From Variovorax sp. dw_308 (lineage in GTDB: Bacteria > Pseudomonadota > Gammaproteobacteria > Burkholderiales > Burkholderiaceae_C): DNA of 64,000 nt. Under the pieces are notes generated by a model that ran no database searches, was not told the DNA's origin, and saw only the letters and a program-made list of their open reading frames with translations. Shown here in pieces: positions 17,448-47,837 of the stretch. The translations under genes and the position numbers were made by a program. The DNA lies in contig NZ_JAATOM010000011.1 of the NCBI RefSeq assembly GCF_019207085.1, forward strand, positions 124,001 through 188,000, read 5' to 3'. Every line of letters begins with the position of its first letter. Within the stretch, counting starts at the first letter, position 1.

Positions 17448-17568
17448 GGCTGGGGATTGTATGTGGGGCCCGGCGAGCCGCCCTGTGTGCTTTGTCACCC
17501 AGGCAAGGGGAAAACACTGCCCCTCCGCAGCCGTGCAGCAGCGGCCGCCGTGCGCCTAAAATCCGGGC

Positions 17569-17795
17569 CGTTGGTGCTCGGGTCGTGGTTCACGCGGCCC
17601 AGTTCAACGGGAAGCAGGAGTCGACGCCGTGTCACCGGCCGACGCCACCTGCGCTGCCCCCGCAACGGTCAAGCAGACGGCGCCCGAAGCCCAGGCTTCT
17701 GGCGCCACTTTCATCCCACAAAGCCACTGGGCGCCCTGAAACAGGCGCCTGGGAAGGCGGGTGAAGGACGCACTGCCAGCCCGGATACCGGCCAA
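17569..17795 (+). promoter_or_regulatory. Cobalamin (B12) riboswitch
   Basis: The leader of btuB holds the aptamer landmarks in order: GGTGCTCGGG, then GTTCAACGGGAAGC (17602-17615), the core GCTGCCCCCGCAACGGT (17653-17669), GCCACTGGGC with CTGGGAAGGCGGGTGAAGG, and the 3' B12 box TGCCAGCCCGGATACCGG (17774-17791). Downstream are two hairpins, GCCTGC-GCAA-GCAGGC (17806-17821) and CACCGGC-ggggaa-GCCGGTG (17837-17856), the likely expression platform. No T-run follows them, so control of translation is more likely than termination. Adenosylcobalamin binding would lower expression of the uptake operon. Confidence 0.88.
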
Positions 17796-17887
17796 CGAGG
17801 CGGCTGCCTGCGCAAGCAGGCGACCATACGCCCAAGCACCGGCGGGGAAGCCGGTGACGGGCATTTGTCTGCGACTCTTTTCTCACC

Positions 17888-22722: not shown

Positions 22723-24195
22723 GTGAACGCGCGCTGCGTCATGGTGCTCGGCACGACCAGCGGCGCCGGCAAGAGCTGGCTGACCACTGCCCTGTGCCGC
22801 TGGCATGCACGCCAGGGCCTCAAGGTCGCGCCCTTCAAGGCGCAGAACATGAGCAACAACGCGCGCGTGGTGGAGGGCGGCGAGATTGGCAGCGCCCAAT
22901 ACTTCCAGGCGCTGGCCGCAAACGCCACGCCGGACGTGCGGATGAATCCCTTGCTGCTCAAGCCCGAGCGCGACACCCACAGCCAGGTCGTGCTGATGGG
23001 CAAGGTGAGCGAATCGCTTTCTGCATTGCCGTGGCGGGGCCGCAGCGAAAAGGTCTGGCCGCAAGTTGCGCAGGCGCTGGACGGACTTCGCGCGGAGAAC
23101 GATGTGGTCGTCATCGAAGGCGCGGGCTCGCCGGCCGAGATCAACCTGATGGGCAGCGACATCGTCAACCTGCGCGTGGCGCGGCATGCCGACGCGCGCT
23201 GCCTGCTCGTCACCGATATTGATCGCGGCGGTGCGTTTGCGCACCTGTATGGCACCTGGGCCTTGCTGCCCGTGGAGGATCGGGCGCGGCTGGCGGGCTT
23301 CGTGCTGAACAAGTTCAGGGGTGATGCCGCATTGCTGGCCCCTGCGCCCGAGATGCTGAAGGACATGACCGGCATCCCGACCGTAGCGACGCTGCCGATG
23401 TGGTGGCAACATGGACTTCCGGAGGAAGATGGCTTGTTCGATGACCGCATGTCCCCAACCCAGCCGTTGCCCACAGGGGCAAGGCGCGAAGATGTCACGG
23501 TCGTGGTCTATCCGCGCATCAGCAACCTCGATGAGTTCCAGCCGCTGAAGAACATTTCCGGTGTGCGCCTGCGCTGGGCGCGCAGCGCGGCCGACCTGGC
23601 CGATGCCGGCACGCTGATCCTGCCCGGCTCCAAGCACACCAGCAGCGACCTCGCCTGGCTGCGCGCGCAGGGCCTGGATCAGGCCATTGCCGCACATGCC
23701 GCAAGAGGCGGTCGGGTGCTGGGTGTGTGCGGCGGCTTGCAGATGCTCGGCGAGGCCTTGATCGATCCGCATGGCGTCGATGGCAACGCTCCGGGCCTGG
23801 GCCTGCTGCCGGTGGTCACGCGCTTCGAGCGCGACAAGACCGTGCGCCATCGCACCGCCAGCTTCGGCGCGCTGCGCGGGCCGTGGAGCGCGCTGTCGGG
23901 CATTGCGGTGCAGGGATACGAGATCCACCACGGCCAGACGCTCGCGCACACGGCGATGGCCGCGGCAGGCGCCCATGCGCACGCGGTGATGGACGACGGG
24001 TTGGCCTGGCAGAACGATGCGGGCAACGTGCTCGGCATCTACCTGCACGGCCTGTTCGAGGATGCCGCCGCGTTGCATGCGCTGTTCGGCGCCGCGTCCC
24101 CGACGCTGGACAGCGTGTTCGATGGCCTCGCCGACTACATCGAGCGTCATTTCGACGCGGGCGTCCTGCGCTCGCTCGCGCTGCAAGCACCATGA
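22723..24195 (+). CDS. cobQ: Cobyric acid synthase
   Basis: Amidates four side chains of adenosylcobyrinic a,c-diamide using glutamine and ATP, in late cobalamin synthesis. It has 490 residues. The N-terminal synthetase domain starts MVLGTTSGAGKSWL with the P-loop-like motif, then FKAQNMSNNARV. The C-terminal glutamine amidotransferase domain has LGVCGGLQMLGE with the nucleophile Cys and YEIHHGQT. GTG 22723 gives the family-like N-terminus NARCVMVLGTTSG. An ATG 96 bases upstream would add an unrelated leader. It overlaps cobC. Only these two late-pathway genes are here, so other cob genes must lie elsewhere if the pathway is complete. Confidence 0.94.
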   Translation: MNARCVMVLGTTSGAGKSWLTTALCRWHARQGLKVAPFKAQNMSNNARVVEGGEIGSAQYFQALAANATPDVRMNPLLLKPERDTHSQVVLMGKVSESLSALPWRGRSEKVWPQVAQALDGLRAENDVVVIEGAGSPAEINLMGSDIVNLRVARHADARCLLVTDIDRGGAFAHLYGTWALLPVEDRARLAGFVLNKFRGDAALLAPAPEMLKDMTGIPTVATLPMWWQHGLPEEDGLFDDRMSPTQPLPTGARREDVTVVVYPRISNLDEFQPLKNISGVRLRWARSAADLADAGTLILPGSKHTSSDLAWLRAQGLDQAIAAHAARGGRVLGVCGGLQMLGEALIDPHGVDGNAPGLGLLPVVTRFERDKTVRHRTASFGALRGPWSALSGIAVQGYEIHHGQTLAHTAMAAAGAHAHAVMDDGLAWQNDAGNVLGIYLHGLFEDAAALHALFGAASPTLDSVFDGLADYIERHFDAGVLRSLALQAP

Positions 24196-24740
24196 GGCTC
24201 TGGTTGCTGCGCCATGCCCAGACCGACGCCGACCCGGGCGTGTGCTTCGGCTCGACCGATATCAGCGTGTCCGTGGAGGCCACGCAGGCGCTGGCCCGCC
24301 AGATCGCGCCGCTGATTCCCGCCGACGCGGTGGTGAGTTGTTCACCGCTGCAGCGCTGCGCCGAACTGGCGCTGGCCATCGAAGCCATCCGGCCCGAGCT
24401 GGCCGCCAGCGCCGACACCCGATTGGCGGAGATGGACTTCGGCGCCTGGGAGGGACGCGAATGGTCCGCCATCTCGCGCGCGGAGTTCGATGGCTGGATC
24501 GGCAACTTCGCCGATGCCCATCCCGGTGGCACCGGCGAGAGCACCCGCCAGTTCATGCGGCGCGTGGGCGACGCGTTCGACGAATGGCAAATCTCGGAGC
24601 GCGACGGTTTCTGGATCACCCACGCGGGCGTCATCCGGGCGACGCAGTTGCTCGCGCGCGGGGTGCGAGTGGCAATGCGTGCCGAGCACTGGCCGCAAGC
24701 GCCGATCGAGTTCGGCGAGTGCATCCTGATCGAGGTCTGA
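24192..24740 (+). CDS. cobC: Alpha-ribazole phosphatase-like histidine phosphatase
   Basis: A 182-residue histidine phosphatase. The N-terminal RHAQTD motif (Arg7-His8) holds the phosphorylated His. LAEMDFGAWEGREW supplies the catalytic Glu region, and WITHAGVIRA the second His. It dephosphorylates alpha-ribazole-5'-phosphate during assembly of the lower ligand. The ATG overlaps the cobQ stop (ATGA), which supports the cobalamin role over a general phosphoglycerate mutase. Its stop codon touches the 161 bp palindromic element that follows. Confidence 0.85.
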   Translation: MRLWLLRHAQTDADPGVCFGSTDISVSVEATQALARQIAPLIPADAVVSCSPLQRCAELALAIEAIRPELAASADTRLAEMDFGAWEGREWSAISRAEFDGWIGNFADAHPGGTGESTRQFMRRVGDAFDEWQISERDGFWITHAGVIRATQLLARGVRVAMRAEHWPQAPIEFGECILIEV

Positions 24741-24900
24741 GAACCTGTGAATAAATCGGCCATGCACGCTCAGCCCGCCCAAACACACCCACCCGTCGTT
24801 GCAAATGCTCGCCGTAGCCCAAGCTACGGCTGTGCTTTGCGCCTAGATTGGGCGCGTTTGGACGAGCTGCTCGCGCACGTCCAATTCATTCACAGGTTCT
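24740..24900. repeat. 161 bp imperfect palindromic intergenic element
   Basis: Two arms of 78-79 bp face each other around GCCGTAGC-CCAA-GCTACGGC (24811-24830). Both ends carry AGAACCTGTGAAT as terminal inverted repeats. The outer 50 positions of the arms match at 39 sites. Of the 11 mismatches, 8 are transitions, and all 8 would be G-U pairs in a minus-strand transcript. It fills the gap between the convergent cobC and Ivy-domain genes. It looks like a MITE- or REP-type repeat, or the 3' hairpin of the minus-strand gene. Copies elsewhere cannot be checked here. Confidence 0.75.
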
Positions 24901-24911
24901 GACCGGGCGCT

Positions 24912-25754
24912 TCAGCGACTTTGCTGCCGCCACTCGGCTTTCCACATCCGTTGCAACTCTGACGCGACGGGTGGCGGCGGGTTGCCCACCAGCATGTCGC
25001 GGTTCACGCGATGCACCAGTGCGTAGACCACCCCCGTCTCGGGCGCGTAGAGCTGCACGGCGTTGTTGTCGAAGCAGTCGTGATCCTTGCAGAAGGCGTT
25101 GAATGCATAGCGTGAGCCGGCCACGTTGACCCAGCGCGGTGGTGGCGCCGGTCCGTTCATCTGCGCCAGCCACGGCTCACGGGCGTCCGCGCCGAGCGCC
25201 TTGCGCCAGGTCGCCCTGAAGCTCGGCGAGGCGATGACCATGTCGACGTTGCCGCCGGTTGTCACGGGCGGTGCGGGTGGGGGTGCGGGTCGCGCTGCGG
25301 CATTCGGCTGCTGCCCCGCGGCGGGATTGCATGCGCGATAACGCAACTGCTGCAAGCCTGGACCGAGCGCGGCGGCCGTCTTCCCGCTCGCGTTGATCTC
25401 GATGAAGCGGCCGCGCGGGTCGCGGTAGATGATGAACAGCAGTTCCGAGCCGCCCCGCACCTCGCTCATCAAGGTCATTTCGTAGTTGCGCGGTGGCGAG
25501 TTGCCGAAGTAGGAGGCGGCGGCCTGCGCCTTGCTGCCCGTGAGCCGTTGTCCGTCGCGTTCGACCAGCAGTCCGTCAGGTTCGACCCTCAGCCTCGGCG
25601 CAGCGGGGTTCGCGCAATCGGCCGACCAGATGCCGCCGTAGAGGGCCATCACATCCGGCGGCAGGCGTTGTGCCTGCGCTGGCGATGCAGCCAGGACACC
25701 GAGCAGGCTGGTTGCCACGGCGATGAATGCACGGTGCGTCGGGAAGGAAGCCAC
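24912..25754 (-). CDS. Exported protein with C-terminal Ivy-type lysozyme-inhibitor domain
   Basis: A 280-residue protein. The signal peptide is about residues 1-29 (LAASPAQAQ). Residues 30-145 form a domain I do not recognise. A Pro/Ala-rich linker (about 150-166) leads to an Ivy-like domain (about 170-280) with the loop C222-K-D-H-D-C227. E. coli Ivy has CKPHDC at the loop that plugs the lysozyme active site, and its context YxxxxxCKxHDCxxN is matched here. GTG 25754 is chosen because AGGAG lies 7 bases before it and the signal peptide then starts cleanly. An ATG at 25787 is weaker. The likely role is protecting the cell wall from lysozyme. Confidence 0.75.
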   Translation of the reverse strand: MASFPTHRAFIAVATSLLGVLAASPAQAQRLPPDVMALYGGIWSADCANPAAPRLRVEPDGLLVERDGQRLTGSKAQAAASYFGNSPPRNYEMTLMSEVRGGSELLFIIYRDPRGRFIEINASGKTAAALGPGLQQLRYRACNPAAGQQPNAAARPAPPPAPPVTTGGNVDMVIASPSFRATWRKALGADAREPWLAQMNGPAPPPRWVNVAGSRYAFNAFCKDHDCFDNNAVQLYAPETGVVYALVHRVNRDMLVGNPPPPVASELQRMWKAEWRQQSR

Positions 25755-25805
25755 AGGGTTCTCCTGAAATGCCTCCCTGAAGTGCATGCGAACGCAGCCT
25801 TGAAG

Positions 25806-44940: not shown

Positions 44941-45017
44941 AGGCCCATAGCTCAGCTGGTTAGAGCGCTTCCTTGACATGGAAGAGGTCGGCGATTCGAA
45001 TTCGTCTGGGCCTACCA
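44941..45017 (+). tRNA. tRNA-Val (anticodon GAC)
   Basis: 77 nt with encoded CCA. Acceptor stem AGGCCCA/TGGGCCT, D-arm GCTC...GAGC, anticodon stem CTTCC/GGAAG with loop TTGACAT (anticodon at 44975-44977) and T-loop TTCGAAT. A T-run terminator follows 25 bp later. Confidence 0.96.

Positions 45018-47752: not shown

Positions 47753-47837
<85 letters not shown>

Follow-up and report, generated by a model that had tools for sequence, protein, structure and literature searches.

The element and its surroundings

The palindrome lying between two convergent genes of Variovorax sp. dw_308 raises the question of what kind of element it is, and why most of the differences between its arms are of a type that leaves one strand, and not the other, able to pair. 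It was studied in a window (the whole stretch of DNA analysed) of 64,000 nucleotides. The preliminary description had placed a palindrome at 24740-24900, with AGAACCTGTGAAT and ATTCACAGGTTCT at its ends and a GCCGTAGC-CCAA-GCTACGGC centre, and it was found there as described. The element unit itself ends in GAACCTGTGAAT and ATTCACAGGTTC and has a TGA on either side (24738-24740 and 24900-24902). The features of the locus are the following:

23727..24740, plus strand: ORF terminating at the element and containing the upstream gene (cobC in the preliminary description); ORF call
24738..24740, plus strand: left word TGA, at which the upstream ORF stops; sequence and ORF call
24741..24899, minus strand (the better-folding one): palindromic element GAACC...GGTTC, 159 bp; sequence, folding and covariance model R1
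24741..24791, no strand: left outer arm, whose positions 0-50 entered the wobble count
24794..24844, minus strand: conserved asymmetric core (plus-strand pattern GTTGCAAATGCTCGC ... GCTTTGCGCC); alignment
24849..24899, no strand: right outer arm, pairing with the left arm
24900..24902, plus strand: right word TGA, where the target word is repeated; sequence, and the single TGA in the empty site of genome G058
24912..25787, minus strand: convergent downstream ORF of 291 aa (Ivy-domain gene in the preliminary description); ORF call

RNA folding of 24720-24920 yielded −123.7 kcal/mol (z −11.4) for the minus strand and −90.0 kcal/mol (z −6.8) for the plus strand, and none of 200 shuffles was as stable on either strand. 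The first 51 arm positions comprised 40 Watson-Crick pairs, 8 A·C combinations on the plus strand (which are G·U on the minus strand), no plus-strand G·T and 3 other mismatches; the 11 mismatches counted previously had been divided in the same manner. Covariance model R1, which was built from 37 sequences including the window copy and has 60 pairs, scored this copy at 165.6 bits on the minus strand and 77.0 bits on the plus strand. The core includes a tip hairpin that is variable and covarying, and it is common to elements with otherwise unlike arms.

Rfam had no match over the element at the gathering score and, below it, two chance-level matches (E 0.81 and 2.4); at eight other loci no match was obtained at E 0.5. 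A literature search of partial coverage retrieved no publication on the family, and the exact core word appeared in none of the papers that it reached. Other structured RNAs of the window were a cobalamin riboswitch (Rfam RF00174, 60.9 bits) at 17555-17810 on the plus strand and two tRNA genes (Rfam RF00005) at 44941-45014 (plus) and 47756-47837 (minus).

Distribution of the family

The element belongs to a family dispersed in Variovorax and in the wider Burkholderiales. A search for copies elsewhere had been proposed in the preliminary description, and both BLAST and covariance-model searches found them, with the same direction of G-U change. A second full copy in the same genome (contig C28) differs at 13 of 159 positions, and at least six places in this genome match R1 at E 1e-5. 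Within the genus, 31 of 101 Variovorax genomes had a BLAST match, in part of them to the core only, with at most eight candidates scored per genome. In the order, at least 53 of 399 genomes, spread over 31 of 158 genera, matched R1 when up to seven candidates were scored per genome. The core pattern, a regular expression that leaves out copies with a departing core (e.g., L013), was present in at least 117 stretches of a genome collection. Among the 80 matches listed there were Burkholderiales such as Rhizobacter, Massilia, Ideonella, Acidovorax, Ramlibacter, Alcaligenaceae, Thiomonas and other groups, together with an Azonexus MAG, a MAG carrying the label Pseudomonadales, and further MAGs labelled Pseudomonadota or Proteobacteria only. 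Viral contigs had no exact match to the core and phages had no BLAST match.

Pairing is preserved on the minus strand

The outer arms were compared in 113 copies of exactly 159 bp out of 146 delimited ones, the 33 copies of other lengths being dropped, and at 48 positions, with two loop positions and one fixed wobble excluded. There were 4517 Watson-Crick pairs, 533 G-U pairs on the minus strand, 29 G-T pairs on the plus strand and 345 other combinations. The one-way G-U bias that had been pointed out in a single copy is therefore far stronger in the family as a whole. A clear wobble excess was present in 29 columns for the minus strand and in none for the plus strand; by copies, the excess was on the minus strand in 111, on the plus strand in none, and two were ties. 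By source, the 66 copies from the genus search gave 326 vs. 16 and the 47 from the collection scan, mostly of other genera, gave 207 vs. 13. In all of the 131 copies folded, the minus strand also had the lower energy, with means of −113.0 and −88.2 kcal/mol.

In the minus-strand alignment, 97.2% of the cells were paired and changes on both sides were observed in 37 of the 60 pairs, arm positions 2-4 being among those that covary. The covariation score was 0.444, above all of 500 shuffles (0.177 ± 0.007), and it fell to at most 0.102 when the partners were slid. It must be noted that the copies are related and hence that neither wobble nor covariation events are independent, but the sliding control and the spread of the events over the columns make a mere effect of inheritance unlikely. 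Minus-strand deamination, as a mutation bias from C to T or from A to G, was considered as a cause of the wobble excess and rejected, given that the unpaired letters of the minus strand are A in 34%, G in 41%, C in 20% and T in only 5% (75% purine). This scarcity of T, together with the presence of both kinds of minus-strand wobble (295 C/A cells and 238 A/C cells), indicates that it is the pairing that is selected. Strand-specific wobble of this type can show on which of its two strands a mobile palindrome is active.

The element lands mostly on stop codons

By a simple ORF caller, 87 of 125 copies started exactly at the stop codon of an upstream gene in the same orientation, and 98 started there or within two bases of it (of 131 copies, those with less than 400 bases of flank were dropped). 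With the same caller, such an ORF was ended by 746 of 11,868 random TGA words (6.3%) and by 195 of 773 CTGAG words from the same loci. Of the 110 copies flanked by a stop word, 70 passed a stricter test, vs. 1,081 of 19,903 random TGA words, and the random-TGA controls retain the insertion sites themselves. In 127 copies, the left word was TGA in 100 and TAA in 10, and the right word was TGA in 100 and TAA in 6. The consensus of the target was C-TRA-G, with C at −4 in 110 of 137 copies and G at +4 in 76 of 137. Insertion thus takes place mostly at a stop codon, (C)TRA(G), in such a way that the host gene retains its stop codon. Landing there is a way for the element to enter a compact genome leaving the host gene unharmed.

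The orientation of the element with respect to the target word is nearly fixed, although not absolute. The left word, readable in 128 copies, was TGA or TAA in 113 of them and TCA in 1; the right word was TGA or TAA in 114 of 137 and TCA in 6. The opposite polarity, with TCA-type words, was found in 8 of 150 copies (7 TCA and 1 CCA; L129, L139, L142, L200, L209, L210, L213, and L221), of which at least four (L129, L139, L142, and L200) are in the Rhizobacter MAG JAJKJU01, alongside TGA copies.

These data bear on the strand preference. The preliminary description had noticed that the minus-strand neighbour ends 12 bases from the palindrome, which is correct for its ORF, and had assigned the element to the 3′ untranslated region of that gene. 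In the family, the association is with the gene on the opposite side of the element (the 98 copies mentioned above), and downstream of these 98 there are 53 convergent and 45 co-directional genes. The neighbour's transcript was accordingly discarded as the reason for the preference. As the favoured strand is antisense to the stop-codon gene, whatever the other neighbour may be, structure in the host mRNA is unlikely to be the target of selection.

Empty sites and mobility

Empty sites were located by searching for the joined flanks, that is, for sister genomes having the same genes without the element. Filled sites have two words and empty sites have a single TGA or TAA, and therefore the element is mobile. 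For the window locus, the empty counterpart is in genome G058 (L512), where the gene end and the neighbour are the same, the TGA is single and the element is missing; identity over both flanks is 70%. A copy with 67% of the query aligned was found in the mobilizable plasmid NZ_LR594692, where its start coincides with the end annotated for an acyl-CoA dehydrogenase gene. In addition, L133:5750-6067 has two head-to-tail copies with one common TGA, as if the right word of one copy had served as the landing site of the second.

Where the two words are unequal and the empty site is readable, the right word equalled the target at 7 of 7 sites. Five of them (L016, L044, L062, L066, and L071) have TAA on the left, TGA on the right and TGA in the empty site, and two (L041 and L082) have TGA on the left, TAA on the right and TAA in the empty site, the relatives of L041 having TAA in three of four cases and CGA in one. 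In L017 and L029 the target of the empty site matches neither flanking word. Identity of the right word with the target fits an insertion of the minus strand 3′ of TYA, but this result is suggestive only, because the sites were picked for unequal or odd words and the left word is free to change only as far as it remains a stop codon; a change of the left word from TGA to TAA after insertion could yield part of it. Inheritance of the left word as a lineage was tried as an explanation and rejected (TAA-left nearest neighbours in 7 of 45 vs. a shuffled mean of 5.3, p 0.30). As a separate observation, TATGAA replaces TGTGAA in the left arm of 5 of 15 TAA-left copies (L016, L029, L044, L047, and L066) and of 2 of 105 others (p 0.0003).

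A folded single strand as the proposed mobile form

Taken together, the element is real, widespread and mobile, with an exceptional structural signature on one strand and a stop-codon target. What its copies have as a common requirement is mobilisation. The preservation of shape on one strand suggests that the element is folded and single-stranded when it moves or acts, and that an enzyme handles it in this state. We lean towards the view, based on sequence comparison, that this is a non-autonomous element family of the Burkholderiales mobilised through its folded single minus strand, either as ssDNA or as RNA. The element would be recognised and inserted in that form by an enzyme acting in trans, the recognised object being presumably the hairpin with its bulged asymmetric core. 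The cut would be made beside 5′-TYA-3′, on the complement of the strand that carries the stop codon, in a single-strand transposition of peel-and-paste type or by an RNA route. If it is the shape of the hairpin that is recognised, arm sequences can drift for as long as the minus strand continues to pair. The reading of one folded strand and a cut beside a short word on that strand would jointly explain the rule followed by the wobble pairs, the covariation of the arms, the constancy of the bulged core and the nearly fixed orientation. The strength of the wobble here makes the transposition route of miniature elements directly testable.

With regard to the enzyme, 97 of the 101 Variovorax genomes had a Y1_Tnp gene (PF01797), with or without the element, and the 30 loci searched with R1 near Y1_Tnp genes gave one match only, at E 0.5. 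As to a replication-strand bias, which would be expected for insertion of ssDNA, the genomes gave no consistent signal (7 of 7 copies in G023, 2 of 7 in G063, and no clear reading in G047).

A small but appreciable chance is left to an ordinary MITE moved by a DDE double-strand transposase, for instance of IS5 type, which would make the 3-bp TNA duplication, the minus strand having an unrelated function as RNA that maintains the fold. IS5-type MITEs have inverted arms, a short target word and a similar size, and words like YTAR or CTAG are typical of IS5 subgroups. A short target duplication of this TNA/YTAR kind is found here, with a 3-bp word on both sides and a single word in the empty sites, the target C-TNA-G is symmetric, and relatives with other arms lie by eye at YTAR/CTAG-like words. 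A 3-bp duplication would indeed be made by a DDE enzyme too, and this, together with the eight reversed copies, speaks against the single-strand reading. The DDE explanation is opposed by the outer arm, which covaries and does not look like a fixed terminal repeat, and by the near-fixed orientation at the target, unexpected with near-identical ends; moreover, the strand bias would require a separate second cause. Among the matches listed in the 101 genomes of the genus, no full-length partner IS with the end patterns of the element was found, and one locus, L473, has a weak inverted end 2.3 kb away.

It is quite unlikely that the element is a hairpin useful to the host, stabilising or terminating transcripts at the 3′ end of the mRNA, as has been proposed for YPAL of Yersinia, which is reportedly close to stop codons. 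The position directly after stop codons and the stability of the window copy, beyond its shuffles on both strands, would agree with such a role. Nevertheless, the favoured strand is antisense to the stop-codon gene and the other neighbour is convergent in little more than half of the copies, relatives do without the element at the sites examined, and no T-run was seen by eye 3′ of the stem of the window copy.

A SINE-like retroelement, whose minus-strand RNA would be inserted by target-primed reverse transcription from a nick at the stop codon, seems very unlikely. The RNA-like pairing rule, the purine-rich unpaired positions and the near-fixed orientation are consistent with it, as is the occurrence of solo left ends (L458-L477, a set that also holds short, internally deleted copies with both ends kept), which directly follow stop-type words and then give way to unrelated DNA. 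Eight solo left ends were queried; four of them matched only themselves among the fetched loci, and L469 gave no clear picture. Those that could be compared look like deletions: host bases have been lost in L461 and L474, the end points of L465 differ between two genomes, and the junction of L463, compared with L077, lies at a short repeat. Target-primed 5′ truncation was consequently rejected for them. Solo right ends seem to be present too, although their coordinates were not paired with a full copy. In addition, target priming predicts that the left word is the target, against the right-word result described above.

Finally, a small conserved protein encoded by the plus strand, open from stop to stop over 53 codons, is hardly conceivable: frame 0 is open in 109 of 113 copies, with 3 stop changes vs. 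a rough relative expectation of 9.9, but the substitution pattern (synonymous share of 0.292 vs. 0.283 expected, and arms without codon-position pattern) and the lengths (18 of 131 copies depart from the common one, none by a multiple of three) largely rule out a coding microprotein.

Relation to known systems

Integron attC sites follow stop codons, are imperfect and variable palindromes, and function as a folded bottom strand. They differ from the present element in their R-box consensus, which was not seen by eye at its ends, and in that this element is itself inserted at chromosomal genes. REP sequences with their RAYT enzymes provide an example of a single-strand mechanism. The preliminary description had suggested a MITE/REP-type mobile element, a structured RNA, or both; mobility, dispersal and structure selected on the minus strand were borne out, whereas a plain REP/RAYT label is not supported, the Y1 genes being there regardless of the element, as indicated above. 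Its feet are GA...TC beside TRA words and lack the GTAG/CGTC tag of REP. In the portions of the sources available, REP and REPIN are described as palindromic hairpins with a mobility tied to RAYT genes (PMC2817692) and with a size of 20-40 bp (PMC3733652), vs. 159 bp here.

Among published elements, and as far as the available parts of the papers go, the one that comes closest in size and behaviour is YPAL or RU-2 of Yersinia, a mobile, intergenic palindrome of about 168 bp with empty sites, an open frame of 56 codons and target duplications of 3-26 bp (PMC2229807; PMC2759123). The element described here is likewise a mobile palindrome with empty sites, with 159 bp plus 3-bp words. A strand-specific wobble rule such as the one found here is not described in those parts of the two papers. 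The single RU-2 copy printed in PMC2759123 has, by eye, no sequence in common with the element; its fold is branched and its strands are alike (−68.1 and −59.4 kcal/mol), unlike those of the element (−110.0 and −76.8). From the same order, Bor-2 of Bordetella bronchiseptica is a structured intergenic family of similar size (167 bp; 17 sequences, 6 of them complete), which, by the part of its description consulted, is a possible relative (PMC2267715).

Related elements

The asymmetric core is also found in elements with unlike arms, located by eye at CTAG/TTAA-like words. Twenty-five of them were hand-picked from 57 rows as complete-looking, and 24 of these 25 folded better on the same (minus) strand. 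The reverse situation occurs in family F (L438-L457, 20 Variovorax loci), which was found by its end pattern and has the ends of the window element (GAAGGTGTGAA...TTCACACCTTC) around an unlike core with a repeated CGGTCCTC. With the same ORF caller, family F started exactly at a stop codon in 20 of 20 loci, a count in which the left TGA had already been required by the search pattern, and in which three or more pairs of loci represent one and the same site in sister genomes. Its 17 full copies are 120-122 bp long, the right word being TGA in 16 and TAA in 1, and all 17 fold better on the minus strand (the three loci left out have shorter or cut copies).

These relatives raise a broader idea, rather doubtful for the moment and drawn from sequence patterns, namely that there may be a class of elements existing in a folded, single-stranded state, whether RNA or ssDNA, that are recognised by their shape instead of their sequence and use stop codons as safe harbours, with at least two families that have unlike cores but the same ends and target. 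If this were true and the strand were RNA, such elements would be the bacterial equivalent of SINEs.

Lastly, eight core-bearing loci (L128, L153, L160, L183, L194, L197, L205, and L237) share a stretch resembling GGCAACGACGAGTGG ... CCC-AAGGGT on the left, where the matching outer arm would otherwise be.
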